Below are positions 1,089-60,808 of a DNA stretch of 64,000 bases, in pieces. This DNA is from Gammaproteobacteria bacterium. GTDB lineage: Bacteria; Pseudomonadota; Gammaproteobacteria; Burkholderiales; Rhodocyclaceae. The notes below the pieces were generated by a model. The model was not told the origin of the DNA. It worked only from the letters and a program-made list of their open reading frames with translations, and did not search any database. The stretch spans positions 186,001 through 250,000 of the forward strand of contig JAHJEO010000016.1 of NCBI GenBank assembly GCA_018825305.1. Direction: 5' to 3'. A program made the position numbers and the translations under genes. Within the stretch, counting starts at the first letter, position 1; each line of letters starts with the position of its first letter.

Positions 1089-1118
1089 AAAAAAGTCGGC
1101 GCTGGCGCCACGCCGCCG
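1089..1118 (+). repeat. Dispersed ~28-nt motif, exact core, intergenic
   Basis: AAAAAAGTCGGCGCTGGCGCCACGCCGCCG. Confidence 0.9.
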
Positions 1119-1200
1119 CAGCCGCCGGCCGCAGGCGAGACCGGTGCAAGCGACCGGACATGGCCTACAATCCCGGCATGCCCTTGTCTGCCACCGCGCA

Positions 1201-1896
1201 ATGAACGCTCCCGATCCCATCATCGCTCCGGCCGGCTTCCTGGCGCGGTTGCGTGCGGCCGGCGTCGAGCCGGGCGACGGCCCGGAACTGCAGCTGACCA
1301 AGTCGCTGCTGGTGCTGGCCACCGGGCTGGTGACTGCGGCGACCATGGTCTGGGTGGGCATCTACCAGTTGCTGGGCCTGCGGTTTTCGGCGACGCTGCC
1401 CTTCGCCTTCCAGCTGCTGCTGGTCGGCAACATGCTGCTGTATGTCCGCACCCGTAACTTCGAGTTCTTCCGCATCAGCCAGCTGGGCCTGTTCCTGTTC
1501 CTGCCGCTGGTGGCGCAATGGACCGTCGGCAACGTCATCGCGTCCAGCGGCGTGGTGCTGTGGAGTGTGCTGGCCCCGGTCGGCGCGATGCTGTGCATCG
1601 GCGTGCGCCAGTCACTTGGCTGGTTTTTCGCCTGGGTGGTGCTCACGGCGCTGTCCGGCGCCGTCGATTACTACCTTGCGGACCCGGTGTTCGGGCAGCA
1701 TGGGCCGGTGCCGGAGCGGGTCAGCCTGGTGTTCTTTGCGCTCAACTTCATCGCGGTCGTCAGCATCATTTACGCACTGATGTTTTTCGCGGTCGAGCAG
1801 AAACGGCGGATACAGGAAAAGCTCGAACAGTCGCGCCGCGAAATCGAACGGGCGAAGGACGCCGCAGACAAACTCTTCGGCAGCATGCTGCTCTGA
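1201..1896 (+). CDS. Multi-TM sensor-like membrane protein ending in a coiled coil; resembles the N-terminal module of class III cyclases without a catalytic domain
   Basis: Hydrophobic segments, then RRIQEKLEQSRREIERAKDAADKLFGSMLL and stop. Confidence 0.6.
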   Translation: MNAPDPIIAPAGFLARLRAAGVEPGDGPELQLTKSLLVLATGLVTAATMVWVGIYQLLGLRFSATLPFAFQLLLVGNMLLYVRTRNFEFFRISQLGLFLFLPLVAQWTVGNVIASSGVVLWSVLAPVGAMLCIGVRQSLGWFFAWVVLTALSGAVDYYLADPVFGQHGPVPERVSLVFFALNFIAVVSIIYALMFFAVEQKRRIQEKLEQSRREIERAKDAADKLFGSMLL

Positions 1897-1899
1897 CCT

Positions 1900-2965: not shown

Positions 2966-4123
2966 ATGCCCCACAACGAAGACATCAGCATGGCCCTGTT
3001 CTGCGATTTCGAGAATGTCGCTCTGGGAGTCCGCGACGCCAACTACGACAAGTTCGACATCAAGCCGGTGCTCGAGCGGCTGCTGCTCAAGGGCAGCATC
3101 GTGGTGAAGAAGGCCTACTGCGACTGGGACCGCTACAAGAGCTTCAAGGCCGGCATGCACGAGGCCAACTTTGAGCTGATCGAGATTCCCCACGTGCGCC
3201 AGTCGGGCAAGAACTCGGCCGACATCCGCATGGTGGTCGATGCCCTCGACCTCTGCTACACCAAGTCGCACGTCGATACCTTCGTCATCATCAGCGGCGA
3301 TTCCGACTTCTCGCCGCTGGTGTCCAAGTTGCGCGAGAACGCCAAACGGGTGATCGGCGTCGGCGTCAAACAGTCGACCTCCGACCTGCTGATCGCCAAC
3401 TGCGACGAGTTCATCTACTACGACGACCTGGTGCGCGAACGCGAGTCGCGCCGTGGCGGTGGCCGCCGCGATGCCCGCGATGCGCAACCCAAGCGCTCGC
3501 CCGAGGAGGAAAAGGCGCGCCGCGATGAGGCGGATGCGCGCCGCGGCAAAGGCCTCGGCCTGGCGGCGGAGACGCTGGAAGCCCTGCTCGAGGATCGAGC
3601 CGACGACGAGCGCGTCTGGGCCTCGGTGCTGAAGGAGGCGCTGAAGCGGCGCAACCCCGGCTTCAACGAGTCCTATTTCGGCTTCAAGACCTTCGGTGGC
3701 CTGCTCGAGGAGGCGCACAAGCGCGGCCTGCTCGAGTTTGGCCGCGACGAGAAATCCGGCGCCTTCGTCAAGCGTCGCGCGGCGATGCAGGTTGCCGCGC
3801 CACAAGGGGACTTGCCGCGCGCCGTCCCGCCAGCGCCGAGTTTTCCGGCGGAGCCCGCGGCCGCTGCGACCGATGCCGAGCCGTCCCTCGTGCCGGCCGC
3901 TGACGCGGCGCCAAAACCGGCACCCGCGTCGCGGCGCCGCTCGCGCGGCAAGAAGGCGGAAGCCGCCGCTGCTCCCGCAGCGATGGCGGCAGTCGAGACT
4001 GCTCCGGTTGCAGTGGCCAAACCCGCCGCCAAGGCGAAGGCGGCCGCCAAGCGCCCCGCCAAGCCGCGCGCCCCGCGCGCCACCAGGCCGAAGAAGACCG
4101 CCGCCGCCAAGGATGGGACCTAG
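2966..4123 (+). CDS. NYN domain (LabA/PIN-like) protein with OST-HTH/LOTUS domain and Ala/Lys/Pro-rich tail
   Basis: FCDFENV...VDALDLCYTKSHVDTFVIISGDSDFSPLVSKLRE; downstream LOTUS-like region. Confidence 0.88.
   Translation: MPHNEDISMALFCDFENVALGVRDANYDKFDIKPVLERLLLKGSIVVKKAYCDWDRYKSFKAGMHEANFELIEIPHVRQSGKNSADIRMVVDALDLCYTKSHVDTFVIISGDSDFSPLVSKLRENAKRVIGVGVKQSTSDLLIANCDEFIYYDDLVRERESRRGGGRRDARDAQPKRSPEEEKARRDEADARRGKGLGLAAETLEALLEDRADDERVWASVLKEALKRRNPGFNESYFGFKTFGGLLEEAHKRGLLEFGRDEKSGAFVKRRAAMQVAAPQGDLPRAVPPAPSFPAEPAAAATDAEPSLVPAADAAPKPAPASRRRSRGKKAEAAAAPAAMAAVETAPVAVAKPAAKAKAAAKRPAKPRAPRATRPKKTAAAKDGT
3820..3846 (-). repeat. Dispersed motif variant (1 core mismatch), in NYN gene
   Basis: CGCCGTCCCGCCAGCGCCGAGTTTTCC on + strand. 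Confidence 0.8.
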
Positions 4124-5255: not shown

Positions 5256-6752
5256 GTGAAGGCCCGGCGGCTCTTTCTCGTCCTTTTTCCGCTCACGCTC
5301 GGCTTCCGCCTCTGGCTGGGCTGGGCGATGCCCATCACCGGCGACGAGGCCTATTTCGTCGACTGGGGGCGCCACCCCGACTGGGGTTTCTACGATCACC
5401 CGCCCATGGTGGGGTGGTGGCTGGCGGCGCAGTTGCTTGCGGGCGACGCGCAGGTCTGGTTGCGGCTGTCGGCGATCCTGCAACCGGCATTGCTGGCGCT
5501 GGCCTGCGCATGGATGCTGCCGCGGCTGGCTCCCGGTGTCACGGCCGAACGCGCCTGGTGGGCGGCGCTGCTGGTGCTGCTGGCACCGGTCAATGTCTGG
5601 AACGTCTTCGTCACCACCGATACGCCGCTGATCTACTTCAGCCTATTGGCGGCGCTGGCATGGCTGCGCGCCACGCAGGACGACCATCGCGGCTGGTACG
5701 TCGTCGCCGGCATCATGCTGGTGGGTGCTGTACTGTCGAAATACTTCGCTGCACTGCTCGGCTTCGCCTTGCTGGTTCACGCCCTGACCCTGCGCCGCAA
5801 GGGCGCCTTTGCCGGCCTTGCCATCGCCTATGCCTGCACCCTGCCGGCGCTGGCGCTGATGGCCTGGTGGAACGCCGGCCACTGCTGGGTCAATGTGATG
5901 TTCAATTTCGTCAATCGCAACGAAGGCGCCGGCCTTAATGCCATGACGCCGCTGCTCTACGCCGCCACGCTGCTCTATGTCGTGAGCCCGCCTGCGCTGT
6001 GGCTGTGGTGGAAGTCGCGCGACCTGCGCGGCGAGGACGGCGGTCTGTGGCTGCTCGCCGCCGTACCCTTCGCCCTGTTCGCCCTGCTGTCGCTGGCCAA
6101 GACCGTCGGCCTGCACTGGTTGCTCGGTTTCGTGCCGCTGGTGCTGCTGTGGCTGGCGCTGCGGCTGCCGCAGGCGACGCTGAATAAGCTCGGCAATTTC
6201 TTCATCGGCTTTGCCGCGCTGCACGTTGCGATCATCGCTGCCGTCGCCCTGGCGCCGATGGAAAGCTGGAAGCGCACCCAGCTCTACGACGGCATTGTCC
6301 TGACCTTCGAGGCGGAACGGCTGGTCGAACGACTGCAGCCCTTCGCCGCCGACTACGCCTTCGCCAGCGACGGCTATTCCAACGCGGCGACGCTTTCGTA
6401 TCGTTCGCCGCAGCGTTTCATGGTTTTCGGCGAAGGCGGCTACCACGCGCGGCAGGACGATTTTGTCACCGACTGGCGCGAACACGACGGCCGCAACATC
6501 CTGATCCTGACCAAGCGCCGTCCCGCCAGCGCCGACTTTTCCAAATACTTCCACGAAGTCGAATTCAAGGCGATCGAGTTGCGCGGCGTCACCTTCACTG
6601 CCGTCCTCGGCCGCGGCTTCAACTACGCGGCCTATCGCGAAGACGTGCTGGCCCGGGTGAAGAGCCGTTACTATGCGCTACCCGCATGGCTGCCGCAGCG
6701 TGGCTGCCAGTTCTGCGACCGCCATTTCCCGGATACCGCATGCACCCGCTGA
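5256..6752 (+). CDS. GT39/ArnT-like glycosyltransferase
   Basis: GDEAYFVDWGRHPDWGFYDHPPMVGWW motif and many TM segments; GTG start. Confidence 0.88.
   Translation: MKARRLFLVLFPLTLGFRLWLGWAMPITGDEAYFVDWGRHPDWGFYDHPPMVGWWLAAQLLAGDAQVWLRLSAILQPALLALACAWMLPRLAPGVTAERAWWAALLVLLAPVNVWNVFVTTDTPLIYFSLLAALAWLRATQDDHRGWYVVAGIMLVGAVLSKYFAALLGFALLVHALTLRRKGAFAGLAIAYACTLPALALMAWWNAGHCWVNVMFNFVNRNEGAGLNAMTPLLYAATLLYVVSPPALWLWWKSRDLRGEDGGLWLLAAVPFALFALLSLAKTVGLHWLLGFVPLVLLWLALRLPQATLNKLGNFFIGFAALHVAIIAAVALAPMESWKRTQLYDGIVLTFEAERLVERLQPFAADYAFASDGYSNAATLSYRSPQRFMVFGEGGYHARQDDFVTDWREHDGRNILILTKRRPASADFSKYFHEVEFKAIELRGVTFTAVLGRGFNYAAYREDVLARVKSRYYALPAWLPQRGCQFCDRHFPDTACTR
6516..6540 (-). repeat. Dispersed motif, exact core, in GT39 CDS
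   Basis: CGCCGTCCCGCCAGCGCCGACTTTT on + strand. Confidence 0.9.
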
Positions 6753-13640: not shown

Positions 13641-13668
13641 AAAAAAGTCGGCAGTGGCGGGACGGCGG
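13641..13668 (+). repeat. Dispersed motif variant, intergenic
   Basis: AAAAAAGTCGGCAGTGGCGGGACGGCGG. Confidence 0.85.
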
Positions 13669-15994: not shown

Positions 15995-17464
15995 GTGGGA
16001 CTGCTTTCCGCACTCCTCCTGCTGCCGCTGGTCGGCGGCCTGATCGTCGCCCTGCTGCCCGGGCGCAAGGTCGATCTCATCCGCCGCGCTACCCTGGCGG
16101 CGACGGTCGTGGTGCTGGCTTTTGCCTGGTCGCTGCTGATCCACTTCGACCCCGCCGTCGCCGGCATCCAGTTGTATGAGGCCCATGCCTGGCATGCCCG
16201 GCTGGGTTCGAGTTTCACCCTCGGGGTCGATGGTTTCTCCTTTCCGCTGGTGCTGCTTGCAACGCTGCTGATGCCCGTCGCCGTGGTGGCATCGGGCGGG
16301 GTGAAGCACGGCGCCAAGCTCTATTTCACGCTGCTGCTGCTGCTCGAAACCGCCATGCTCGGCGTTTTCATGGCGCGTGACTGGTCGCTGTTCTACGTCT
16401 TCTGGGAGCTGACGCTGGTCCCGCTGTTCTTCCTCATCGACCGCCTCGGCGGCAAAAACCGGCTGCGGCGGCAGAAGGCGGCGCTCAACTTCGTGCTCTA
16501 CACCATGGGCGGCTCGGTGTTCATGCTGATCGCCCTGTTGCTGCTCTACGACGCCGTGCCGACCCACAGCTTCGCCATGGGTGCGATGGCGGAAGCGGCG
16601 CGGGGTCTGCCGATCGAAACCCAGGTCTGGATCTTCGCCGGATTCTTCATCGGCTTCGGCGTCAAGATGGCGGTATTCCCGATGCACGGCTGGGTGCCGC
16701 TGGTCTATGCCGAGGCGCCCAGCGCGGTGCCGCTGATATCGTCGGGCATCCTGCTCAAGATGGGCGGCTACGGCCTGCTGCGGGCGACGGAAACGCTGCC
16801 CGGCGCGGTCTGGGCGCTGCAGGGCTGGCTGGCGACCCTGGCTTTCGTCACGCTGCTCTACGGCGGGGTGCTGGCATGGCGCCAGCGCGACCTGATCGTG
16901 ATGCTGGCCTACTCGTCGATCTCGCACATGGGCGTGGTGCTGCTGGGCATTGCCGCCCTCAACACGGCGGGCCTGACCGGCGCCATGATGCAGATGCTGG
17001 CGCACGGCTTCGTCGCTGCCGCCCTGTTCCTGATGGTCGGCCTGCTCGATGCGCGTACCGACACCCGCGACATCGGCGACTATTCCTCGCTGGTGCGCAG
17101 CATGCCGCGCTTCGCCTTCTTCATGGTGCTGGCACTGACAGCGGCCGTCGGCCTGCCCGGCACGGCCGGATTCATCGCCGAACTGCACGCGCTGGTCGGC
17201 GGCTTCGCCCGCTGGGGCGGCTGGATGGTGCTGCTGTCGCTGAGTCTCCTGATCAGCGCCGCCTACGCCTTCCGCACCGTCGGCCGCCTGTTTACCGGCC
17301 CGGTGGGCAAGGCGATGCGCGAAGTGCCCGACCTGACCCGGCCCGAGATGGCGGCGGTCGGTGTGGTCTCGTTCGGCATCCTCGGCATCGGCCTCTACCC
17401 GGCGCCGGCGCTGGCCCTGGTTGGCGCCTCGGTGGCGCAACTGGCGCGGTATTTCGGAGGCTGA
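15995..17464 (+). CDS. NuoM-like membrane subunit of the DAB-type complex (GTG start)
   Basis: NADH-quinone oxidoreductase/Mrp-like TM pattern; stop adjacent to dabA start. Confidence 0.85.
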   Translation: MGLLSALLLLPLVGGLIVALLPGRKVDLIRRATLAATVVVLAFAWSLLIHFDPAVAGIQLYEAHAWHARLGSSFTLGVDGFSFPLVLLATLLMPVAVVASGGVKHGAKLYFTLLLLLETAMLGVFMARDWSLFYVFWELTLVPLFFLIDRLGGKNRLRRQKAALNFVLYTMGGSVFMLIALLLLYDAVPTHSFAMGAMAEAARGLPIETQVWIFAGFFIGFGVKMAVFPMHGWVPLVYAEAPSAVPLISSGILLKMGGYGLLRATETLPGAVWALQGWLATLAFVTLLYGGVLAWRQRDLIVMLAYSSISHMGVVLLGIAALNTAGLTGAMMQMLAHGFVAAALFLMVGLLDARTDTRDIGDYSSLVRSMPRFAFFMVLALTAAVGLPGTAGFIAELHALVGGFARWGGWMVLLSLSLLISAAYAFRTVGRLFTGPVGKAMREVPDLTRPEMAAVGVVSFGILGIGLYPAPALALVGASVAQLARYFGG

Positions 17465-17466
17465 CG

Positions 17467-20400
17467 ATGACCGCCCAGGCCAGCGATACCCCGGACATCC
17501 GCAGCCGCCTGCACGACTGCATGCATCACCTCGAGCACGTGTTGCCGAGCCAGGCCTCGATCCGCGATTTCGTACATCACAACACCCTGCATGGCTTTCA
17601 GCACCTGCCCTTCCCCGAGGCACTGGCCGCGGCCAGTCGCCTGACCGGCGCCAGGGCCTGGCTGCCCGAGGAAACCAGCCGCGATCACTATCGCAGCGGC
17701 CGCATCGACGCCGCCGACCTCGATGCCGCGCTCGACCAGCTGGCGCCCGGCTGGCAGATCGACCTCGCCGCGGTACTGCTGGAAACGCCTGCGACCGCGG
17801 TATGCCGCCGCGATGTCCTCCGGGTCGGCCTGGTTCATCCGCTGGGTGCGGTTCCGCTGGCCCGGCTCAAATGGCTGATCGAGGAAAAGCAGGCGCTGAC
17901 CCGCTTCGCCGCCGACCTGTCGGCCCCGGCACGGGCGCGGCTGCTCGCGGCCCAGGGTGACCATGGCGACCAGGGTGACCATGGCAACCATGGCGACGAG
18001 GCGCAACTGGTCGGCGAGTTGTGGGCTGCCTGCCTCGATGCCTTCGGCCTCGACCACGTCTTCGACCACCCGGAGGAGTTGCTGGAACTGTCGGCACGGG
18101 AGGAAGAGGGCTACGCCACCAGCGCCGAAACCCATCCGGCGTTTTCCTCGCGGGCCGCCCTGCTGTGGCAGGAGCTTGCCGTAAAAGTCGGCGTTAGCGG
18201 CACGGTGGGTGCGTTGCTCAAGGCACTGACTGACGAGGACACGCAGGATGGCGTGCGCCCGCTGCTGTTGCGCCATCTCGCCGGGCATCTCGACCAGGGC
18301 CTGGCGCCGTGGCACAACCCGGCGCGACCGCTGGGCTTCTATGCCTCGTGGCGGCAAAGCGTCGCCCACGATATCGCCTGGGCGATGGAGTCGCTGCCGG
18401 GCGCCCGCTTTGAAGTCGAGCAACTGCCGGATGATGCGACTGACGTCGTCGTCGCCGAACTGACGCGACTGGGCCTGCCCGAAGAACGCTGGCCCGGTTA
18501 CCTTGAGCGCCTGGCGCTGGAATTGCCAGGCTGGTCCGGCATGTTTCTGTGGCGCCACAATCGTCCGGGCTACGCCGGCACCGGCGAGGTTCCGGTGGCG
18601 ATGATGGACTACCTCGCCGTGCGCCTGGTGCTGGAACGGCTGGCCGGCGGCGCCATCACGCAGCGGCACTGGGGCGTGGAGTTTTCGCTGCCGGCGCTCG
18701 GCGAGTATTTCCGTCGCCACCCCGACGAACTGTGGGTCCGCCACGCCTACCATGGCGGCGACCTGCCCGAATGGCTGCTCGACCTGATCGAGCCGCACCT
18801 GCCTGCTGCCAACGAAGCCGCGCTGCCCCAGGCACCAGGCCTGTGGCAGTGGCTGGCCGAGCGGGTCGAGGCCTGGCGCAACGCGCCGACCGCCGAGCAG
18901 ACCGCCAGCCATGGCCTGGCCTGTTCGGCCTGGCCGCTATTCATGCTGGCGCAGCATCTCGGTGTTTCCGGCGCGGAGTTGCGCGGCATCGGCCGCGCCG
19001 GTGCCGAGACCCTGCTGGCGAGCCTCGACCTGCTTGACGAGCACCAGCGCGGCTTCATCTGGCTCAATGCCTACGAACGCCACTATCGCGAGCAGATCCT
19101 CGCGGGGCTGGCGGCCAACCATGGCCGCTGGAACGGCCATCCGGACGGCCCGGTGGCTCAACTGGTGTTCTGCATGGATGACCGCGAGGAGGGCATGCGC
19201 CGCCACCTCGAAGAGATCAACCCGCAACTGGAGACGCTGGGTGGTGCCGCCCACTTTGCCGTGTTCCAGAATTACTACGGCCTCGACGACCGCGAGCCGA
19301 CGCCGCTGTGTCCGGTGGTGCCGCAGGTCATCGTGCCCTCGCACGACGTGCGCGAGACCGCGCGACCGGGCGCGGAGGCCGCGGCGACCGAACACCGCCG
19401 CCGCCATGCCCGCCGCCGCCGCTGGCAGGATCAGTTGCACCAGATTACCCGCCGTGGCCTCGTCACCGGCCCGCTGCTGACGCTGCTGGCCGCACCGCTG
19501 GCGCTGGCCGGCTTGCTGCTGCGCGCACTGGCTCCGGGCGTGCTGGGCCGGCTCAACGGTGCGCTGCGCGAAGCCTTCGATGGCCAGGTGCCGACCCGGC
19601 TCGACCACAACGCCGCCGCCGATGCCGGTCCGGCCACGCCCGAGGCGCCGCGCCACGGCTTTACCGACGCCGAGCAGGCCGAGCGTATCGCCGGCTTCCT
19701 CACCAACTTAGGCCTCACCCGCGACTTCGCGCCGCTGGTGGTGATCATGGGTCACGGCTCGAACAGCAACAACAACCCGCACATGGCCGCCTACGACTGC
19801 GGCGCCTGCGCCGGCCGCCATTCCGGCCCCAACGCGCGGCTCTTCTGCGCCATGGCCAACCGCCCCGAGGTGCGCGCGCTGATGCGTGAGCGCGGCATCG
19901 ACGTGCCGGCGACCACGCATTTCCTCGGCGCCGAGCACAACACCGCCGACGACCTGATCACCTGGTACGACACCGAGGATCTCGCCGTGTCGCTGCAGCC
20001 GACTTTTTCGCGCGTCGACGGCGACCTGGCCGCAGCCGCCCGCGCCCACGCCCAGGAGCGCTGCCGCCGGCTCTATTCGGCGCCGCTCGGCATTGACCAG
20101 GACGACGCCTTGCGCCATGTCTGGGGCCGTCGCAACGACTTCTCGCAGCCGCGCCCGGAACTCGGCCACGTCACCAACGCCTGCGCCTTCTTCGGCCGTC
20201 GCGCCATGAGCCGCGGCGCCTATTTCGACCGCCGTGCCTTCCTCATCTCCTACGACCCGACGCAGGACCCGAGCGGCTCGGTGCTGGAACGCCACCTGCT
20301 GATCAACGGCGCGGTCGGCGCCGGCATCAACCTCGAATATTTCTTCTCGACGGTGAACAACGAGGCCTTCGGCTGCAGCAGCAAGATCATGCACAACGTC

Positions 20401-20766
20401 GCGGGCTATTTCGGTGTCATGGAAGGCGCCGGCTCCGACCTGCGCACCGGCCTGCCCAAACAGATGATCGAGATCCACGAGGCGATGCGCCTGCTGGTGG
20501 TGATCGAGCAGACGCTCGACATCATCACCGCCGTCTACCAGCGCCAGCCGCCGCTGCAGGAACTGGTCGGCAACGGCTGGGTAATCGTCGTCGCCAAGGA
20601 TCCGGTGAGCGGCGCGATCCATCTGTTCGATCCGGCAACGGGCTGGCAGCCGTGGCAGTCCGCGGTCAGCGTGAGCACGGTCAAGCAGTCGGCCGACTGG
20701 TTCGCCGGCAATCGCGAGCCGCTGCCCCCGGTGCTGCTCGAGAAACCCTTGCAGGTGGCGGCATGA
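17467..20766 (+). CDS. dabA: DabA (DUF2309/UPF0753) inorganic carbon accumulation protein
   Basis: Beta-CA-like site FCMDDREEGMRRHLEE and GHGSNSNNNPHMAAYDCGACAGRH (H-x14-C); 1099 aa. Confidence 0.95.
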   Translation: MTAQASDTPDIRSRLHDCMHHLEHVLPSQASIRDFVHHNTLHGFQHLPFPEALAAASRLTGARAWLPEETSRDHYRSGRIDAADLDAALDQLAPGWQIDLAAVLLETPATAVCRRDVLRVGLVHPLGAVPLARLKWLIEEKQALTRFAADLSAPARARLLAAQGDHGDQGDHGNHGDEAQLVGELWAACLDAFGLDHVFDHPEELLELSAREEEGYATSAETHPAFSSRAALLWQELAVKVGVSGTVGALLKALTDEDTQDGVRPLLLRHLAGHLDQGLAPWHNPARPLGFYASWRQSVAHDIAWAMESLPGARFEVEQLPDDATDVVVAELTRLGLPEERWPGYLERLALELPGWSGMFLWRHNRPGYAGTGEVPVAMMDYLAVRLVLERLAGGAITQRHWGVEFSLPALGEYFRRHPDELWVRHAYHGGDLPEWLLDLIEPHLPAANEAALPQAPGLWQWLAERVEAWRNAPTAEQTASHGLACSAWPLFMLAQHLGVSGAELRGIGRAGAETLLASLDLLDEHQRGFIWLNAYERHYREQILAGLAANHGRWNGHPDGPVAQLVFCMDDREEGMRRHLEEINPQLETLGGAAHFAVFQNYYGLDDREPTPLCPVVPQVIVPSHDVRETARPGAEAAATEHRRRHARRRRWQDQLHQITRRGLVTGPLLTLLAAPLALAGLLLRALAPGVLGRLNGALREAFDGQVPTRLDHNAAADAGPATPEAPRHGFTDAEQAERIAGFLTNLGLTRDFAPLVVIMGHGSNSNNNPHMAAYDCGACAGRHSGPNARLFCAMANRPEVRALMRERGIDVPATTHFLGAEHNTADDLITWYDTEDLAVSLQPTFSRVDGDLAAAARAHAQERCRRLYSAPLGIDQDDALRHVWGRRNDFSQPRPELGHVTNACAFFGRRAMSRGAYFDRRAFLISYDPTQDPSGSVLERHLLINGAVGAGINLEYFFSTVNNEAFGCSSKIMHNVAGYFGVMEGAGSDLRTGLPKQMIEIHEAMRLLVVIEQTLDIITAVYQRQPPLQELVGNGWVIVVAKDPVSGAIHLFDPATGWQPWQSAVSVSTVKQSADWFAGNREPLPPVLLEKPLQVAA

Positions 20767-22310
20767 ACTGCCTGTTCATCCTCGTCATGCTGATCCCGTT
20801 GCTGCCGCTGCTGGCGGCAGGCGGCATAGCAACCTACATCCTCGGCGGCCGGGCGGCAGGCGGCAACAGCGATGATCGCGAGCCGCCAACGGCGCGTCTG
20901 GCCGAGGGCGCCGCCTGGCTCGCCTTCGCCGGCCTGCTCGGACTCGACGCGCTGGCCCTGCTGGAGGGAGCGCCGGGCCACTTCGTCGTCGGCACCTGGT
21001 TCGCCAGCGGCAGCTTCGTCGTCCCGGTCTCCTTCCTGCTCGACGGCCTCAGCCTCCCCTTCGCCACGCTGGTCGCGCTGATCGGCGCGGTGACGCTGCG
21101 CTTCTCGCGCAACTACCTGCATCGCGAGGCCGGCTTCCACCGCTTCTTCATCTTCATGTGCCTGTTCCTCGCCGGCATGCTGCTGATCGTGCTTTCCGGC
21201 AATGCGGTGATGACCTTCGTCGGCTGGGAGTTCGCCGGCGTCAGCTCCTATCTGCTGATCGGCTATGCCTACGACCGGCCGGTGGCCACCGGCAATGCGC
21301 TGTGGGCCTTCATCACCAACCGCATCGGCGATGCCGGCTTCATCCTCGGCATCAGCCTCGCCGCCTGGTGGCTGGGCACGGTCGAGTGGTCGGGGCTGGC
21401 GGCCTGGGCGGAGAACGCCACCGCCTTCGACAAGGTCACTGCGCGGCTGATCCTGCTCGGCTTTCTCCTTGCCGCCGTCGCCAAGTCGGCGCAACTGCCC
21501 TTCGCCTCATGGATCGCCCGCGCCCTCGAGGGGCCGACGCCGTCCTCGGCGATTTTCTACGGCGCGGTGATGGTACATGCCGGCGTCTATCTGGTGATCC
21601 GCCTCGAACCGGTGCTGCTGCACGTCCCCGACGTGATGATCTACCTCGCCATCATCGGCGCCGCTACCGCGCTGTATGGCTGGCTGGCGGGCCTGACGCA
21701 GACCGACGTCAAGTCGTCGCTGGTATTCGCCACCACCACCCAGGTGGGACTGATGTTCCTCGCCTGCGGCCTCGGCTGGTTCGAGCTGGCGGCCTGGCAC
21801 ATGGGGCTGCACACCACCTGGCGCGCCTACCAGTTCCTGCTGGCGCCGTCCTATATGCACCTGGTGAACGAAAAGGCCAAGCCGGCGCCGGCCTGGCTGG
21901 CGGGCCGGCAGTGGCTCTACACGGCGGCGCTGCAGCGGTTCTGGATCGAGCACCTGGCCCAGAGCACGCTGATCCGTCCGGCGATCGCAGTGGGGCACGA
22001 CATGCGCGACTTTGACGACAACGTGCTTTCCCACCTCGTCGGCATGCCGCAGCAACGGCGGACCGGCGAAGAAGGCGAGCGCGACGAAGACGCCGTGATT
22101 CGCGGCCACGGCCTGGCCGGTGCCTTCCTCGTCTGGACGGCCGACCGCCTGCACCGCTTCGAGTCGCATCTGGTCATGCAACAGGGCAGCGGGCCGCTCA
22201 CCCGCGCCATGCGCCGCATCGGCGAATACCTGCTGGTGTTCGAGGCCCTGCTGGAGCGGCCGCGCTACCTGATCGTGGCCATCGTCGCGACCTTCGTGGT
22301 GATTCTATGA
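20763..22310 (+). CDS. NuoL-like membrane subunit (DabB-like)
   Basis: LLDGLSLPFATLVALIGAVTLRFSRNYLHREAGFHRFF...FVGWEFAGVSSYLLIGYAYDRP; ATGA overlap with dabA. Confidence 0.88.
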   Translation: MNCLFILVMLIPLLPLLAAGGIATYILGGRAAGGNSDDREPPTARLAEGAAWLAFAGLLGLDALALLEGAPGHFVVGTWFASGSFVVPVSFLLDGLSLPFATLVALIGAVTLRFSRNYLHREAGFHRFFIFMCLFLAGMLLIVLSGNAVMTFVGWEFAGVSSYLLIGYAYDRPVATGNALWAFITNRIGDAGFILGISLAAWWLGTVEWSGLAAWAENATAFDKVTARLILLGFLLAAVAKSAQLPFASWIARALEGPTPSSAIFYGAVMVHAGVYLVIRLEPVLLHVPDVMIYLAIIGAATALYGWLAGLTQTDVKSSLVFATTTQVGLMFLACGLGWFELAAWHMGLHTTWRAYQFLLAPSYMHLVNEKAKPAPAWLAGRQWLYTAALQRFWIEHLAQSTLIRPAIAVGHDMRDFDDNVLSHLVGMPQQRRTGEEGERDEDAVIRGHGLAGAFLVWTADRLHRFESHLVMQQGSGPLTRAMRRIGEYLLVFEALLERPRYLIVAIVATFVVIL

Positions 22311-22491
22311 GCGACGCCCGCAGGGCCGCCCCAAGGGCGGCGCAATCCAACGACCGGAGCCGCGAAGCGGCGAACTCTCGTCACCTCCCCGCGAGGGGGC
22401 GAAGGCAGGGGTTCGCGGAGCATTGCTCCGCGCTGCCGAAGCCGGCTGGCTGTGCAAAGCCAGCCGTGGACGGTCGGGAGGGGGAGGGCTC
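22311..22491. repeat. Hairpin-rich intergenic segment inside the DAB operon
   Basis: Five short inverted repeats: GCCGCCC/GGGCGGC, GCCGC/GCGGC, CCCC/GGGG, CGCGGAGCA/TGCTCCGCG, GGCTGGC/GCCAGCC. Confidence 0.75.
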
Positions 22492-25475: not shown

Positions 25476-25526
25476 TCAATTCGCATTTTTCCCTCGGGGT
25501 AGCACCCGGTGTCGTGATACTATCCC

Positions 25527-33280: not shown

Positions 33281-34228
33281 ATGCAGCCGCGCCTGATCCA
33301 GGTCGATCGTGCCGACCCATCCGCCAGTCGCGACGAGCTGCTGCGCGGCCTGCAGGCCGACCCCGCCGCGATCCCGCCCAAGTATTTCTACGACGCGCTC
33401 GGCGCGCGCCTGTTCGCCGCCATCACCGAGCTGCCCGAGTACTACCCGACGCGCACCGAGGCGGCGATCTTCGCCCGCCATGCGGAGGCGATGGCGCGGC
33501 TGCTGCCGGCCTTCGCGGCGCTGGTGGACCTGGGCGCCGGCAACTGCGAGAAGGCGGCGCGGCTGTTCGCCGCCTTCGGCGTGCGCCGCTACGTCGCGGT
33601 CGACATTTCCGTCGACTACCTGCGCGAGTCGCTCGACGTCCTGCGCCACCAGCATCCGCGGCTGGACCTGCTCGGCGTCGGCCTCGATTTCTCGTCCCGC
33701 CTGGACCTGCCCGCCGCAGTGGGCGAGGGGCCGCGGCTGCTGTTCTATCCCGGCTCCAGCATCGGCAACTTCGCGCCTGCCGACGCGCTCGCCTTCCTGC
33801 GCCAGGCGCGGGCGGCGGCGCAGGGCGGGGCGCTGCTGATCGGCGTCGACCTGGTCAAGCCCGTGGATGTGCTGGAAGCCGCCTACGACGACCCGCTCGG
33901 CGTCACGGCGGCGTTCAACCGCAACCTGCTGCGGCATGTGCGGCGTGTCGCCAGCGCCGACTTTTCACTAACCGACTGGCGCCACGTCGCCTTCTTCAAT
34001 GACGCCGAATCGCGCATCGAGATGCACCTCGAAGCCGTGCGCGACGTCGCCGTGCGCTGGCCCGGTGGCGCACGCCGCTTCGCCGCCGGCGCGCGCATCC
34101 ACACCGAGAATTCGTACAAGTGGCGCCTCGCCGATTTCGCCGCGCTGCTGGACAGCGCGGGCTTTGGCGACCTGCATCACTGGACCGACGATAACGACTG
34201 GTTCGCGGTGTTCCTCGCCCGCGCCTGA
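33281..34228 (+). CDS. egtD: L-histidine N-alpha-methyltransferase
   Basis: PPKYFYDALGARLFAAITELPEYYPTRTEAAIF; LVDLGAGNCEKAARLF; SRIEMHL. Confidence 0.94.
   Translation: MQPRLIQVDRADPSASRDELLRGLQADPAAIPPKYFYDALGARLFAAITELPEYYPTRTEAAIFARHAEAMARLLPAFAALVDLGAGNCEKAARLFAAFGVRRYVAVDISVDYLRESLDVLRHQHPRLDLLGVGLDFSSRLDLPAAVGEGPRLLFYPGSSIGNFAPADALAFLRQARAAAQGGALLIGVDLVKPVDVLEAAYDDPLGVTAAFNRNLLRHVRRVASADFSLTDWRHVAFFNDAESRIEMHLEAVRDVAVRWPGGARRFAAGARIHTENSYKWRLADFAALLDSAGFGDLHHWTDDNDWFAVFLARA
33941..33965 (-). repeat. Dispersed motif, exact core, in egtD
   Basis: CGGCGTGTCGCCAGCGCCGACTTTT on + strand. Confidence 0.9.
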
Positions 34229-34236
34229 GGCCGGGG

Positions 34237-34262
34237 CGCCGTGTCGCCAGAGCCGACTTTTT
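34237..34262 (-). repeat. Dispersed motif (1 core mismatch), abutting EgtB-like stop codon
   Basis: CGCCGTGTCGCCAGAGCCGACTTTTT on + strand. Confidence 0.88.
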
Positions 34263-35406
34263 ACGCCGCGCAGCTGCGGAAGCCGGCGTGGATGTCGTCG
34301 CGCTCCGGCGCGAAGAAGTTGCGGTATTGCGGATGCGCCATGCGCGGCGCGGTGGCGCGGCTGGCGCCCTTGAGCACGCGGTGGTCCGTCTCGAAGCCGA
34401 AGCGCGAGTAGTCGCGGTAGGGGTGGGCGACAAAGCCGGCGAAGGACACGAAGCGGCTGGCCGTCCATTCCCAGACGTCGCCCCAGGCGAAATCCGGCGC
34501 CGACAGGGCCGCGCATTCCCACTCGGCCTCGCTCGGCAGCCGCCGCCCGGCCCAGCGGCACCAGGCGTCGGCCGCGTCGCCGCTCACGTGGACCGCGGCG
34601 GCATCGAGGTCCAGCGGCTGCCACGTGCCGTGGCGCCGTGCCTGCCACGCGCCGCCCTCACGCCGCAGGGTACGCGGCATCGCCACCGCGCCCGCCTCGA
34701 CCGCCGGCAGGAAACGGCGCCAGCTGACGGCTACGCTGTCGATGGCGAAAGGCGCCAGTTCGATGTCATGGGCCGGCAGCTCGTTGTCGAAGGCGAAGCC
34801 CGGTCCGGCGTGGCCGAGGCGCCAGGTCGTCGCCGGGATGGCGATTTGCAGCGGCGGCGGCAGCGCGCGCTCGGCGGGGCGCAGCGGCGCGGGCAGGGCG
34901 ATGTCGAGCGCCTGCGCCATGTAGGTGGCGGCTTCGGCGTGCATGTCCTCGTGGAAGAGCGAGAGGCGGAAGAAGTAAAGCCCGGCGTCCGTCGTCGGTG
35001 CGTGCGCCAGCAGTTGCAGCGTCTCGGCCAGGCTGGCGTCGAGATAGGCCCGCGTCGCCGCGAGCGCAGGCAGGGGTATGTGCCAGCGCGAGGCGTGGGC
35101 GACATGGCTCGAATCGTAGAGCGCGTCGGCGCCGGGCAGGCGGCCGTCGGGCCGCGCGTGGTCGGGGTCGCAGGCCAGGCCGCGCTCGCGCTGGCGGTTG
35201 CGGGCGATCCAGAAGTCCTGGAACCATGCGACGTGGCCGGCTTCCCACAGCGGCGGGTTGAGCCGCGGCGAACAGGGCACGCGCAAGTCCTCGCCCAGCG
35301 CGGCGACGTAGGCGTCCTGCAAGGCCAGCGTGCGGCGGCGCGCATCCTGCAGCGCGCCGGTGAGATAGGCCGCGTCGCCGCTGCGGGCGTCGTCGCGCGG
35401 AACCAT
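34261..35406 (-). CDS. EgtB/SenA-family sulfoxide (selenoneine) synthase-like protein
   Basis: NPPLWEAGHVAWFQDFW, FHEDMHAEA, FGE-sulfatase-like C-terminal region. Confidence 0.85.
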   Translation of the reverse strand: MVPRDDARSGDAAYLTGALQDARRRTLALQDAYVAALGEDLRVPCSPRLNPPLWEAGHVAWFQDFWIARNRQRERGLACDPDHARPDGRLPGADALYDSSHVAHASRWHIPLPALAATRAYLDASLAETLQLLAHAPTTDAGLYFFRLSLFHEDMHAEAATYMAQALDIALPAPLRPAERALPPPLQIAIPATTWRLGHAGPGFAFDNELPAHDIELAPFAIDSVAVSWRRFLPAVEAGAVAMPRTLRREGGAWQARRHGTWQPLDLDAAAVHVSGDAADAWCRWAGRRLPSEAEWECAALSAPDFAWGDVWEWTASRFVSFAGFVAHPYRDYSRFGFETDHRVLKGASRATAPRMAHPQYRNFFAPERDDIHAGFRSCAA

Positions 35407-35836: not shown

Positions 35837-35861
35837 CGCCGTCCCGCCAGCGCCGACTTTT
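35837..35861 (-). repeat. Dispersed motif, exact core, abutting higA stop codon
   Basis: CGCCGTCCCGCCAGCGCCGACTTTT on + strand. Confidence 0.9.
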
Positions 35862-43808: not shown

Positions 43809-44745
43809 TGCCCTCCTGCTGGTAGTTTTTGTAGAGGCCGTCGAAGACGCGGCCGGCTGCGTCGAGCAGTTGATCGTCGTTTGGCGCTGCCGCGCGCAGG
43901 CCGGCCAGCACGGCCTCGATGCCTGCCGCTTCAGCCACCGCCGCCCCGCCCTCGTTCACCAGGTCCAGGCAATGCACGATGGCGCCGATGCGGGCGAGGG
44001 CGGGGTCGGCATCGAGGCCGAAGCTGGCCGCCAGCACTTCGAAGCTGACGCGTTCCGGTGCATTGCCGGTGGCGGCGATGTGGGTGAAGGCCGCGCCGTC
44101 GAAGTCGAAGCCGAGCGCGTCGGCCGGGCAGTCGGCGGGTGTGGCCAGCCAGAGGAACTTCGCCTCGCGGTCGATGAAGCGGCGGATCAGCCAGGCCGAT
44201 GCCATGCGATCGACCCAGAGCTGCTTGCGCGTGGCCCAGGTCCGCCCGCAAAAGTCGGCGCTGGCGAGACGGCGGATTTCGCCGCCGGCCGGGCGCGGTT
44301 CGCCCGGGGCCAGGCGCGCGGCGAGGTCATCCAGCGCCTGACGCGCCTGATCCTGCGCGGCGCCGGGGAAGTAGTCGGCGGCGGCCAGTTGGGTAAGTTC
44401 ACGCGTCAGCCGCCGCAGGGTCTTGTCGTCGGTCGTCGCCTCGTGGGTAGCCGCGATCAGCGCGCCGTACTCGGTGCCGCGGTCGAACAGCTGGCGGAAG
44501 CTTTCGTCCTGCGCGGCGTCGGCCGCGATGTGCAGCACCTCGGCGCTGCCGTCGGCTGCGCGCACTTCGTCGGCCAGCGCGCGCAGTGCCGCGCTCGTCG
44601 CCTCGCGCGCCGGCAACAGATAGACTCCGTCGCGCAAAGTGGCGGCGCCCAGTGCCTTGACGGCGCGCCACAGCCGCATGCGCGCGGCGGTGTTGCGCGA
44701 GGGCAGGGTAGTGACGAGGGTGAGCCATTCGACCAGCTGAAGCAT
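43798..44745 (-). CDS. chrB: Chromate resistance protein ChrB
   Basis: WLTLVTTLPSRNTAARMRLWRAVKALGAATLRDGVYLLP; RTWATRKQLWVDRMASAWLIRRFID. Confidence 0.93.
   Translation of the reverse strand: MLQLVEWLTLVTTLPSRNTAARMRLWRAVKALGAATLRDGVYLLPAREATSAALRALADEVRAADGSAEVLHIAADAAQDESFRQLFDRGTEYGALIAATHEATTDDKTLRRLTRELTQLAAADYFPGAAQDQARQALDDLAARLAPGEPRPAGGEIRRLASADFCGRTWATRKQLWVDRMASAWLIRRFIDREAKFLWLATPADCPADALGFDFDGAAFTHIAATGNAPERVSFEVLAASFGLDADPALARIGAIVHCLDLVNEGGAAVAEAAGIEAVLAGLRAAAPNDDQLLDAAGRVFDGLYKNYQQEGNDA
44250..44275 (+). repeat. Dispersed motif, exact core, in chrB
   Basis: AAAAGTCGGCGCTGGCGAGACGGCGG. Confidence 0.9.
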
Positions 44746-44768: not shown

Positions 44769-45995
44769 ATGACTTCTACAACAGCCTCTGCGGCCAGCGA
44801 CCGTCGCCGCCTTTATGCCGCCGCCTTCCTGCGGGCACTGGCCACCGGCATGGCCGGCGTGCTGCTGGGGCTTTATATCGCCCGGCTGGGCCTGTCGGCG
44901 AGCTGGCTGGGGCTGGTGCTGAGCGTCGGCCTGATGGGCGCGACACTGTCGGTGGCGGTGGCGACCTGGTGGGGCGACCGGCTCGGGCGGCGGCGCGCAT
45001 TGCTCTGGCTGGCCGCCCTTTCCGCCGGCGGCGGGGTGGTGCTGGCGCTGGGCGCCGAGGGTTCGCGCGGCTGGCTGATCGTGGCGGCGGCGCTGCTGGG
45101 CATGGTCAACGGCATGGGCCGCGACCGCGGCGCGGCGCTGGTGCTGGAGCAGGCGATCATGCCGGCCACCACGGACGACGCCGGTCGCACCGCGGCCTTC
45201 GCCCGCTACAACCTGCTGATGGACATCGGCCATGCGCTCGGCGCCCTGGCCGGCGCCCTGCCCGCGTTGCTTCTGCTCACGACCGGCATGGACGAGCTGG
45301 CGGCCTATCGCGCCGCCTTCCTGGTTTATGCGGCGCTGCTGGCGGCGGGGCTGCCGCTCTATGCCGGATTGTCGGCGGCGGCCGAGGCGCCGCCGCGAAT
45401 CGAGCGCCTGGTGCTGTCGCCGCAAAGTCGCAAGGTGCTCGCCCGCATCTCGGCGCTGTTCGCCATCGACAGCATCGCCGGCGGCTTCATCGGTGCGGCG
45501 CTGATCTCATGGTTCTTCTTCGAGCGCTTCGGTACTTCGGCCGCGGTGATCGGCCTGCTGTTCTTCGGCGCGCGGCTGATGAACGCCGTTTCGCACCTCG
45601 GCGCGGCCTGGCTGGCGGCGCGCATCGGCCTGGTAAACACCATGGTGTTTACCCACATCCCGTCGAGCCTGCTGTTGCTCACCGTGCCGCTGGCGCCGAC
45701 TTTTTCCGTCGCGGCGATCCTGTTCCTGCTGCGCGAGGGCCTGGTCGAGATGGACGTGCCGACGCGCCAGTCGTATGTCATGGCGATGGTGCGGCCGGAG
45801 GAGCGCACCTTCGCTTCCGGCGTGACGCACCTGGTGCGCCTCGGCGGCTGGGCGGTGGCGCCGGCCTTCGCCGGCTGGCTGATGCAGGCGGTGGCGCTGG
45901 GTGCGCCGCTGGCCGTCGGCGCGGTGATGAAAATCGGCTACGACCTGGCGCTGTGGGCGTCGTTCAGGAAGCTCAAGCCGCCGGAGGAACGCTGA
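44769..45995 (+). CDS. MFS transporter
   Basis: 12-TM-like; GDRLGRRRALLWLAALSA. Confidence 0.9.
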   Translation: MTSTTASAASDRRRLYAAAFLRALATGMAGVLLGLYIARLGLSASWLGLVLSVGLMGATLSVAVATWWGDRLGRRRALLWLAALSAGGGVVLALGAEGSRGWLIVAAALLGMVNGMGRDRGAALVLEQAIMPATTDDAGRTAAFARYNLLMDIGHALGALAGALPALLLLTTGMDELAAYRAAFLVYAALLAAGLPLYAGLSAAAEAPPRIERLVLSPQSRKVLARISALFAIDSIAGGFIGAALISWFFFERFGTSAAVIGLLFFGARLMNAVSHLGAAWLAARIGLVNTMVFTHIPSSLLLLTVPLAPTFSVAAILFLLREGLVEMDVPTRQSYVMAMVRPEERTFASGVTHLVRLGGWAVAPAFAGWLMQAVALGAPLAVGAVMKIGYDLALWASFRKLKPPEER

Positions 45996-51462: not shown

Positions 51463-51488
51463 CGCCGTGTCGCCAGCGCCGACTTTTT
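51463..51488 (-). repeat. Dispersed motif, exact core, intergenic
   Basis: CGCCGTGTCGCCAGCGCCGACTTTTT on + strand. Confidence 0.9.
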
Positions 51489-52262: not shown

Positions 52263-53521
52263 GCAACTACGATTCCCTCGACGGAGCCGCCGACAAGCTC
52301 GCCGCGGCGCGCACCAAGCTTATCCTCGACAAGCCTTTCCTCGGCGCGCTGGTGCTGCGGTTGCCGCTGGTCGAGGCAGGGGCGTGGTGCCGCACCACCG
52401 GCACCGATGCCCGCAAGCTCTACTACAACCCGCAGTGGGTCGATACGCTGACCAGTGCCGAGGTGCAGTTCGCGCTGGCGCACGAGGCGCTGCATTGCGC
52501 GCTGGGGCATTTTGCGCGGCGTGGCCACCGGGTGAAGCGCAAGTGGGACCTCGCCTGCGACTTCGCCATCAACCCGTTGCTGATGGACGAGGGCCTCAAG
52601 CCGCCGCTGGGCTCGCAGGTGCTTGACCTCTACCGCGGCATGGCGGCCGAGGAGATCTACCCCTGCCTCGACGACAGCCTCGACAACGAGGTGCTCGACG
52701 ACCACTCATGGGATGGCGACGACGGCGGCGAGGGTGGTGGTGGCGGTGAGCAGGACGACGTGCAGGGCAAGGGCGGCAGCGACGCCGAGGAGATCGATCC
52801 CGACGCCGGCGGCGGCTCGCCGGAAAAAGTCGGCGCTGGCGGGACGCCGGGCGATGGCCCGGACGGACCGCCACCGCCGCTGTCGGGCAAGGAAAAGGAG
52901 CAGTTGCAGCAGCAGTGGCAGCGCCACCTCGCCAATGCGGCACAGCGCGCGCGCGAGGCCGGCAAGCTCACCGGCAACATGGCGCGCCTGACCGAAACCG
53001 CGCTGGCGCCGCAGGTGTCGTGGCGCGCCGCGCTGGCGCAATACCTGTCGCAGGCCGCGCGCGACGACTACACCTGGCTGCGGCCGTCGCGGCGCGAGGG
53101 TGACGTGATCTGGCCCTCGCTGCGCAGCCACAGCGGGGAGATCTACGTCGCGCTCGACACCTCGGGCTCGATCGCCGATGTCGACCTCGCCCAGTTCGTC
53201 GGCGAACTCAACGCCATCAAGGGTACGCTGCCGGTGCGCATCACGCTGTTTGCCTGCGACTCCGACCTGCATGCCGACACGCCGTGGATCTGCGAGCCGT
53301 GGGAGGAGTTCCGCCTGCCGCGCCAGTTCGAAGGCGGTGGCGGCACCGCCTTCGCGCCAGTGTTCGACTGGGTGGATCGCGCCGGGGCGCGGCCCGACGC
53401 GCTGGTGTATTTCACCGATGCAGAGGGTGAATTTCCCAAGGTCGCCCCCAACTACCCGGTTTTGTGGCTCATCAAAGGCAAGGCCCCGGTACCGTGGGGC
53501 CGCCGCATCCAACTGAATTGA
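52259..53521 (+). CDS. VWA-like / DUF2201 predicted metallopeptidase
   Basis: ALAHEALHCALGHF (HExxH) and C-terminal VWA-like YVALDTSGSIADVDL. Confidence 0.92.
   Translation: MSNYDSLDGAADKLAAARTKLILDKPFLGALVLRLPLVEAGAWCRTTGTDARKLYYNPQWVDTLTSAEVQFALAHEALHCALGHFARRGHRVKRKWDLACDFAINPLLMDEGLKPPLGSQVLDLYRGMAAEEIYPCLDDSLDNEVLDDHSWDGDDGGEGGGGGEQDDVQGKGGSDAEEIDPDAGGGSPEKVGAGGTPGDGPDGPPPPLSGKEKEQLQQQWQRHLANAAQRAREAGKLTGNMARLTETALAPQVSWRAALAQYLSQAARDDYTWLRPSRREGDVIWPSLRSHSGEIYVALDTSGSIADVDLAQFVGELNAIKGTLPVRITLFACDSDLHADTPWICEPWEEFRLPRQFEGGGGTAFAPVFDWVDRAGARPDALVYFTDAEGEFPKVAPNYPVLWLIKGKAPVPWGRRIQLN
52824..52850 (+). repeat. Dispersed motif, exact core, in VWA gene linker
   Basis: AAAAAGTCGGCGCTGGCGGGACGCCGG. 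Confidence 0.9.
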
Positions 53522-58485: not shown

Positions 58486-59543
58486 GCGACCTGACCGAAC
58501 AGTTTGCCGACCGCATTCGTGCCGCGAGCGGCCCGCTGTGCATTCGCGGCAGCGGCAGCAAGGATTTCTACGGCAACGCGCCGCGCGGAGAAGTGCTGGA
58601 GGCGGGCGGCCATCGCGGCATCGTCGGCTACGAGCCGACCGAACTGGTGATCACCGCGCGGTGTGGCACGCCGCTGGCGGAAATAAAGTCGGCGCTGGCG
58701 GAACGGCGGCAGATGCTGGCTTTCGAGCCGCCGTCGTTCGGCGACGCCGCGACGATCGGCGGCGTGGTCGCGGCAGGACTGTCCGGCCCGCGCCGTGCCA
58801 CGGCGGGCAGCGTGCGCGATTTCGTCCTTGGCGTGAAGCTGCTGGACGGCGAAGGCCGCCTGCTTACCTTCGGCGGCCAGGTGATGAAGAACGTGGCCGG
58901 CTACGATGTGTCGCGCCTGATCGCCGGCAGCCTCGGTACGCTGGGCTTGATCTCCGAAGTGTCGATCAAGGTGCTGCCGCTGCCGATGGCCGAGGCAACG
59001 CTGCGCTTCGAACTGCCACAAGACAAGGCGCTGGACCTGATGAATCGCTGGGCTGGCCAGCCGCTGCCGGTGTCGGCCACCTGTTGGGCCGATGACTCAC
59101 TGACACTGCGGCTGTCGGGCGCCGGCACGGCCGTGGAATCGGCCAGTAGCGCCCTTGGCGGCGAGCGCGTCGCCGACGCCGCTGCCGCGCATTTCTGGAC
59201 CAGCCTGCGCGAGCAGCGCCATGCCTTTTTCGCTGCCGATGGTGACGCTGCCGCGCTGTGGCGCCTTTCGGTGCCGTCGATCGCCGGCGCCCTCGACCTG
59301 CCGGGTGCGACCCTGGTCGAGTGGGGCGGCGCCCAGCGCTGGATTCGCGGCGGCAGCAGCGATGCGCCGCGCGCCGCGGCGCTGCGCGTCGGCGGCCATG
59401 CCACACTGTTCCGCGGCGGCGACAAGAGCGCCGGCGTGTTTCAGCCCCTCGATCCGGTGACGCAGCGCATCCACCGCGACCTCAAGCGCTCCTTCGACCC
59501 GCGCGGCATTCTCAATGCCGGGCGCATGTATCCCGATTTGTAA
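58482..59543 (+). CDS. glcE: Glycolate oxidase subunit GlcE
   Basis: GTPLAEIKSALAERRQMLAFEPPSFG; overlaps glcD. Confidence 0.95.
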   Translation: MSDLTEQFADRIRAASGPLCIRGSGSKDFYGNAPRGEVLEAGGHRGIVGYEPTELVITARCGTPLAEIKSALAERRQMLAFEPPSFGDAATIGGVVAAGLSGPRRATAGSVRDFVLGVKLLDGEGRLLTFGGQVMKNVAGYDVSRLIAGSLGTLGLISEVSIKVLPLPMAEATLRFELPQDKALDLMNRWAGQPLPVSATCWADDSLTLRLSGAGTAVESASSALGGERVADAAAAHFWTSLREQRHAFFAADGDAAALWRLSVPSIAGALDLPGATLVEWGGAQRWIRGGSSDAPRAAALRVGGHATLFRGGDKSAGVFQPLDPVTQRIHRDLKRSFDPRGILNAGRMYPDL

Positions 59544-60808
59544 TGGAAACCCACCTCGCCGACTTTATCCGCGATACCACCGCCGGCCGCGAGGCCGAGG
59601 AGATCCTGCGGAAATGTGTGCACTGCGGCTTTTGCACTGCCACCTGTCCTACCTACCAGCTGTTCGGTGACGAACTCGACGGGCCGCGCGGCCGCATCTA
59701 CCTCATCAAGCAGATGCTCGAAACCGGCGTGGCGACCGAAAAGACGCGGCTGCACCTCGATCGTTGCCTTACCTGCCGTTCCTGCGAGTCGACCTGTCCC
59801 TCGGGTGTGCATTACTCGCGCCTGCTCGACATCGGCCGCGAGGTGGTGGCGAGCCGCGTGCCGCGCTACGGCATGGACGGGCTGACGCGCTCGCTGCTCA
59901 AGCATCTGCTGCCGCGCCCGGCGCTGTTCAACCCGGCGATGCGGCTCGGCCAGATGGTGCGGCCGCTGCTGCCCGCCGCGCTCAAGGCCAAGGTGCCGGA
60001 ACGCCGCGACCCCGGCTTGACGCCGGCGCTGCATCATTCGCGGCGCATGATCGTGCTGGCCGGCTGCGTCCAGCCGGCCATGATGCCCGGCATCAATGCC
60101 GCTGCGGCGCGCGTGCTCCATCGCCTCGGCATTTCGCTGGTCGAAGCGCAAGGGAAAAATGCTGCCGGCTGCTGCGGCGCCTTGCGCATGCATCTGGACG
60201 ACGCCGAAGGCGCGCGGGACGATGCCCGGCGCAACATCGACGCCTGGCTGCCCCTGCTCGATGATGGCTGCGAGAACATCGTCATGACCGCCTCGGGCTG
60301 CGGAGTCCAGGTGCGCGACTACGCGCACCTGCTGCAGGACGATGCGCGCTATGCCGTCGGCGCGGCACGCATTGCACTGGCGACGCGCGACATCAGCGAG
60401 GTGGTGATCGCCGAGAAGGCGGCGCTGCTGGAACTGCTGGAAAAGTCGGCGCCAGCGCCACGGCGACGCGCGGTGTTTCACGCCTCCTGCACGCTGCAGC
60501 ACGGCCAGCAGATTCGCGGCGTAGTCGAAGACCTGCTTGCCGCGGCCGGCTTCGATTTGACGCCGGTGAGCGACCCCCACCTGTGCTGCGGCTCGGCCGG
60601 CACCTATTCGGTGCTGCAGCCGGAAATCTCCACCCGCCTGCGCGACAACAAGCTCGGCGGCCTGGGGGTCGGCAGCGACCGGCCGCCCGAGGTCATCGCC
60701 AGCGCCAACATCGGTTGCATCACCCACCTGCAAAGCGGTACGCTCCTGCCGGTACGCCACTGGATCGAACTGCTCGATGCCCGGCTCAAGGAGGCAGCTG
60801 ATGTCTGA
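59543..60808 (+). CDS. glcF: Glycolate oxidase iron-sulfur subunit GlcF
   Basis: CVHCGFCTATCPTY, CLTCRSCESTCPSGV, HASCTLQHGQQIRG. Confidence 0.95.
   Translation: METHLADFIRDTTAGREAEEILRKCVHCGFCTATCPTYQLFGDELDGPRGRIYLIKQMLETGVATEKTRLHLDRCLTCRSCESTCPSGVHYSRLLDIGREVVASRVPRYGMDGLTRSLLKHLLPRPALFNPAMRLGQMVRPLLPAALKAKVPERRDPGLTPALHHSRRMIVLAGCVQPAMMPGINAAAARVLHRLGISLVEAQGKNAAGCCGALRMHLDDAEGARDDARRNIDAWLPLLDDGCENIVMTASGCGVQVRDYAHLLQDDARYAVGAARIALATRDISEVVIAEKAALLELLEKSAPAPRRRAVFHASCTLQHGQQIRGVVEDLLAAAGFDLTPVSDPHLCCGSAGTYSVLQPEISTRLRDNKLGGLGVGSDRPPEVIASANIGCITHLQSGTLLPVRHWIELLDARLKEAADV
60441..60465 (+). repeat. Dispersed motif variant (2 core mismatches), in glcF
   Basis: AAAAGTCGGCGCCAGCGCCACGGCG. 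Confidence 0.65.

Follow-up and report, generated by a model that had tools for sequence, protein, structure and literature searches.

A dispersed 25-nucleotide repeat as a putative DNA uptake sequence in a clade of Rhodocyclaceae

What kind of element is a short sequence that recurs in both orientations, in genes and between them, along a bacterial chromosome? The 64-kb stretch analysed here (the window) belongs to the genome of a Rhodocyclaceae bacterium, 3.16 Mb in 29 contigs, and the relatives retrieved with one of its proteins are Rhodocyclaceae. The original prediction described a ~28-nt motif whose 17-nt core, AAAAGTCGGCGCTGGCG, occurs exactly eight times. Recounting gives the same eight exact copies (1091+, 6524-, 28320+, 33949-, 35845-, 44250+, 51471- and 52825+), versus none in 100 dinucleotide shuffles, and 16 copies at up to three mismatches, versus a dinucleotide-shuffle expectation of 0.62. 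The minus-strand coordinates first given agree with the recount because they mark the low end of a longer unit. That unit is real, what had been read as a variable "R S" being two variable positions, but its length is 25 nt: the full repeat, AAAAGTCGGCGCTGGCGNNACGGCG, has the layout AAAAGTCGGCGCTGGCG-NN-ACGGCG and sharp edges in copies aligned from three genera, and the same alignment displays neither sequence conservation in the flanks nor target duplication. Six earlier near-matches were recovered at 3820(-), 13643(+), 18183(+), 34237(-), 58684(+) and 60441(+). A "split" one at 37926 is absent at up to four mismatches, and copies at 45680(-) and 19983(-) had been missed. The copies, both genic and intergenic as had been claimed, are the following:

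1091..1115, +, core exact, one mismatch to the 25-mer; intergenic
3820..3844, -, one mismatch; inside an NYN-domain gene (2966-4123); a copy occupies this position in G003 too
6516..6540, -, perfect 25-mer; glycosyltransferase-like gene (5256-6752); site empty in G003, with no 25-nt gap
13643..13667, +, two mismatches; intergenic
18183..18207, +, three mismatches; in dabA; common to other Rhodocyclaceae; motif-free DabA aligns without gap
19983..20007, -, four mismatches; in dabA; common to L041, L042, L043 and L045
28320..28344, +, core exact, two mismatches to the 25-mer; Fe-alcohol dehydrogenase gene
33941..33965, -, core exact; EgtD-like methyltransferase gene; common to G003
34237..34261, -, one mismatch; intergenic; no copy in G003, alignment gapped
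35837..35861, -, perfect; directly downstream of a HigA-like gene
44250..44274, +, perfect; chrB-like gene; same site in G001, G002, G003 and G004 (two genera)
45680..45704, -, three mismatches; MFS gene; common to G002 and G003
51463..51487, -, perfect; intergenic
52825..52849, +, core exact; DUF2201 (VWA) gene; common to G001, G003 and G011
58684..58708, +, one mismatch; FAD-binding gene; same site in G002, G003, G004, G011 and G041
60441..60465, +, two mismatches; Fe-S/CCG-domain gene; common to G003

The excess extends to the whole genome, where the exact core is found 225 times (103 on the plus and 122 on the minus strand) and the reversed pattern never. The full unit occurs about once per 4.3 kb. 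In the 464-kb sample of the own genome used for mismatch counts, 26, 35, 19, 14, 5 and 8 copies of the 25-mer carry zero to five mismatches, respectively, versus 0, 0, 0, 0, 0 and 0.2 for a shuffled motif. The 833-kb sample used for spacing and gene context holds 67 exact, 65 one-off and 32 two-off copies of the 17-mer, at a density of 0.23 per kb, and by extrapolation the genome has ~700 copies. In carriers, unbiased 12-mer counting also ranks the motif with the most over-represented sequences. In a G+C-rich genome whose genic copies prefer certain reading frames, one might suspect chance, codon usage or a recurrent peptide motif, but the shuffle and reversed-motif controls are near zero, and the copies occupy both strands, several frames, unrelated genes and intergenic DNA. 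Controls and diversity together refute this origin, which is practically ruled out.

A second repeat, GGTACTTTCTTGC, has seven copies, both strands counted, in the same 464 kb (L001-L020). Among IMG/VR viral contigs, taken without host assignment, 77 stretches contain the exact 25-mer.

Were the copies inserted, or did they form in place? At the 28320 site, three relatives (L041, L042 and G003) possess unmodified sequence of the same length. A second place of this Fe-alcohol dehydrogenase gene harbors a copy in L041 and L042 and none in the window, with no large gap. For the dabA sites, DabA of motif-free gammaproteobacteria aligns gapless at the motif-encoded residues. Small gaps are present in some empty-site alignments and the intergenic copy at 34237 lies within a 36-nt gapped stretch, but a clean 25-nt insertion is observed in no coding case. 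Third-codon identity is 0.896 inside the motif versus 0.645 in the flanks for 24 shared coding site pairs, a contrast that is overstated because the pairs were chosen for matching. The alignments indicate that the copies arose in place by substitution, without insertion. The same protein-alignment test has been used to show that the USS is non-inserted (PMC1626085).

These alignments bear directly on a mobile or REP/RAYT-type element spreading by insertion, one of the candidates originally proposed. Near-identical copies of a short dispersed repeat are what such an element would leave, and genus g20 indeed displays tandem hairpin arrays on the motif. The 25-mer, however, leaves empty sites without a 25-nt gap, shares sites across genera, lacks conserved flanks and target duplications, and is spaced more evenly than random. 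Unlike REP elements, it is neither mainly palindromic nor intergenic-only, and most carriers are without a RAYT gene: no Y1_Tnp gene was found in the own genome (G000) or in seven other carriers (G002, G041, G066, G082, G186, G048 and G022). With RAYT missing, copies formed in place and no intergenic insertion pattern, this candidate is rejected for the dispersed 25-mer and considered very improbable; only the g20 arrays could be such an element. These arrays consist of a 54-nt hairpin unit containing the motif core (L021 14187-14265, L022 10521-10653, L023 3433-3565 and 6966-7152, L024 10847-10925, and L123), and in most of them the outermost unit bears the full motif, ending ACGGCA. They are possibly REP-like elements grown from the uptake motif.

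Along the chromosome, orientation is balanced (103 plus and 89 minus among 192 sites in 833 kb). The remark that mixed orientation sets the motif apart from KOPS/Chi-type signals is right for this region and agrees with this split, which describes strand balance within single contigs. The gaps between the sites of this sample have a coefficient of variation of 0.755, versus 0.977 at random placement, none of 5000 simulations being as even, and 19 gaps are below 1 kb versus 37.5 expected. The longest motif-free stretch in the sample, 15 kb (G000:C13:74411-89597), is occupied by a GlgE/alpha-amylase/4-alpha-glucanotransferase cluster that may have been acquired later. Large site-free gaps were also considered as foreign islands and dropped, the longest being this glycogen/GlgE sugar cluster and not a prophage.

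By simple home-made gene calls, 148 of the 188 classified sites in the 833 kb are coding, versus a coding share of 91.7% of the DNA, so that intergenic DNA is enriched for copies. Their number per kb is 0.94 in convergent gaps, 0.68 in tandem gaps, 0.09 in divergent gaps and 0.19 in coding DNA, with ten copies in convergent versus one in divergent gaps, two classes of about equal total length. Inside genes, frames giving stops are avoided and certain frames are preferred on each strand; the peptide encoded by same-strand copies is mostly K-V-G-A-G-x-T-A.

The preference for convergent gaps and the avoidance of divergent ones would suit a transcription terminator or other RNA-level element, as would the inward pairs. 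In the own-genome sample, just two pairs lie less than 250 nt apart, both facing inward with the A-runs outside, and such a pair forms a terminator-like stem followed by a T-run (TTTT). Most copies, however, are single, genic and on either strand, of 28 carriers tested 8 have exact inward pairs, one or two each, and a single copy folds no better than shuffles. The terminator reading was abandoned on this last result, and is extremely improbable for the repeat as a whole.

How far does the motif extend among relatives? A family survey covered 399 Rhodocyclaceae genomes at up to three mismatches, with a reversed-motif control of 0-3. Carriers, which are freshwater and soil bacteria, fall in ~8 related genera forming one clade, abundant meaning 100 to 800 copies. 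Counts reach the hundreds in almost every genome sampled from g1, g2, g20 and g64, and also in g9 and g39 (one sampled genome each); they are lower in g46 (103 copies) and G026 of g24 (41 copies). The motif is nearly absent from ~60 other Rhodocyclaceae genera, and no more than a few copies, if any, occur in each of 60 genomes from the order's other families. In a ComEC tree, a single clade (support 98/93) takes in every carrier; its base, where G027 (4 copies) lies, is unresolved. Nested within this clade are G306, which has 0 copies and branches at the base of g20, and G301, placed within g2 with 39 copies; both look like motif losses in single lineages. A search of G301 for decayed remnants gives a slight excess only, at 5-7 mismatches. 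No comparable rival over-represented motif was found by 12-mer counting in 100-150 kb samples of the motif-free relatives G021, G062, G050, G301 and G306. A few copies are present in genomes of motif-free genera (G057:C50, G058:C66 and C104, G189:C1), several of them lying within some kb of each other, a pattern suggestive of DNA imported from carriers or of binning contamination.

The consensus varies by species, as these dialects exemplify:

G001: GTCGGCG[C/G]TAGCGNNACGGCA
G011: GTCGGtGCTGG
G066: CTGGtG
G048: GTCGaCGCTGG
G022 and G082: ending ACGGCA

At orthologous sites, that of 44250 included, G001 carries its own dialect, and the 58684 site is shared with five other genomes, across four genera when the window is counted. 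Because dialects imply a coordinated change at many sites, they point to a putative recognition factor acting in trans.

This factor could be intracellular. MatP, Noc and SlmA are proteins that organise or mark the chromosome, and the 25-mer might be the site of an undescribed, clade-specific protein of this type, kept by selection at each site. A co-evolving intracellular protein would also give in-place origin, dialects and single-lineage loss, and it would fit the lack of ComEA in most carriers (see below). Known chromosome-organising systems, however, rely on short palindromic sites that number from a few to some hundred, whereas the 25-mer amounts to ~700 copies, uniform, on both strands, mostly genic and spread all over the contigs. 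Compared with matS, parS, SlmA/Noc sites, KOPS and Chi, which are likewise dispersed chromosomal protein-binding motifs, it is longer, asymmetric, far stricter, strand-unbiased and not confined to a region. Its 23 near-fixed positions far exceed the usual strictness of intracellular sites, a contrast that has also been drawn for the USS (PMC1626085). We regard the chromosomal-protein explanation as unlikely, and the "nucleoid/regulatory protein site" of the original prediction as less likely than its "DNA-uptake-like signal", the candidate that the evidence favours over REP/RAYT as well.

The 25-mer is probably a DNA uptake sequence of this Rhodocyclaceae clade. The preference follows because an intracellular protein hardly explains evenly spread, asymmetric, near-perfect 25-mers lying mostly in genes. 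Judged by genomic anatomy, a putative DUS is the best reading. Among the features listed for the USS/DUS genomic signature in PMC1626085, the 25-mer displays extreme over-representation, a near-perfect consensus, substitution in place, unbiased orientation, spacing more even than random, genic location with intergenic enrichment and inverted pairs as terminators (rare here). It is also present in related species with dialects tracking phylogeny and missing from other members of the family, features given for the DUS in PMC3630211.

The likeness extends to each of the known systems. The Pasteurellaceae USS also consists of hundreds of near-perfect asymmetric copies, strand-unbiased and evenly spaced, with some inverted pairs, many genic copies, intergenic enrichment and an origin by substitution (PMC1626085). 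In both sequences an initial A-run leads into GT.CGG-like letters, a likeness that may be accidental. The USS, however, has a 9-bp core with A/T-rich flanks, whereas the 25-nt repeat is G+C-rich and bipartite, belongs to another lineage, has a density of ~0.23 per kb and goes mostly without ComEA. The Neisseriaceae DUS, whose receptor is ComP, shares species dialects that follow phylogeny and a family of which part is without the repeat (PMC3630211), as well as inverted pairs acting as terminators, and its hosts, like the motif carriers, are Betaproteobacteria/Burkholderiales in the wide sense. In contrast, the 25-mer is unrelated in sequence, longer and sparser, and a PF16732 search found no specific ComP counterpart. 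Against the uptake reading, the density is lower than that of known USS/DUS, and 23 is a high number of fixed positions for an uptake signal.

Do carriers possess the machinery for uptake? ComEC was found in 46 of 46 genomes tested (one, a non-carrier, below cut-off), PilQ in 26 of 26 and DprA in 25 of 26, the exception being draft G004. Since non-carriers have them too, comEC, dprA and pilQ are permissive only, and competence of the carriers is possible from this gene content. The ComP_DUS pilin family PF16732 matches carriers and non-carriers alike and was discarded as a carrier marker. PilQ scores against the family model are 319-396 bits in most carrier genera versus 450-523 in most non-carriers, with g20 carriers at 425-474 and G301 low, at 335; the low scores may reflect drift in the lineage or a change in how DNA is handled. 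ComEA is present in carrier G066, but most carriers have no recognisable one, and this holds for G071, G026 and G082, whose genomes are single contigs. The HHH-domain matches in ComEA-less carriers belong to one protein of about 800 residues, probably Tex. ComEA is given as essential for uptake in Vibrio cholerae (PMC3879209). The lack of ComEA in most carriers is the main caveat to the uptake reading.

From these genomes, we infer competence, a receptor and an uptake bias. Naturally competent members of the clade would recognise DNA of their own kind by the 25-mer label and take it up preferentially. On double-stranded DNA arriving from outside, the asymmetric 25-mer would be bound by a surface receptor belonging to the type IV pilus machinery for uptake. 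One strand would then move inwards through ComEC, for recombination by DprA/RecA. Chance improvements of a near-match would spread by recombination because better-matching fragments enter cells more often. Hundreds of near-perfect copies would thus accumulate in place, between genes and where the encoded peptide is tolerated.

To our knowledge, uptake sequences have been described from two bacterial families only, and no paper with the motif sequence or on uptake sequences in Rhodocyclaceae was found in the open-access literature. A putative uptake sequence that evolved independently and was previously unreported is the best reading. We lean slightly towards the fuller claim of a third, independent self-DNA uptake code, 25 nt long and G+C-rich, with several dialects, repeated loss, no recognisable ComEA and an undescribed receptor. 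Are uptake sequences peculiar to two lineages by accident, or does biased uptake generally produce them? If true, a third origin, in which dialects exist and the motif was lost recently within individual genera (G301 and G306), would make this question testable and would offer an independent case for what makes a receptor sequence-specific. A 25-nt tag on DNA would then be a route to transform environmentally important wastewater and freshwater bacteria.

Two gene clusters of the window were recorded besides the repeat. Positions 16000-25500, where DabA adjoins NADH-quinone-oxidoreductase-M-like proteins and a SulP-type transporter, are a DAB-type inorganic carbon pump region. At 33281-35406, an EgtD-like histidine methyltransferase adjoins a SenA-like selenoneine synthase, the latter matching NF041186 with a score above cut-off.
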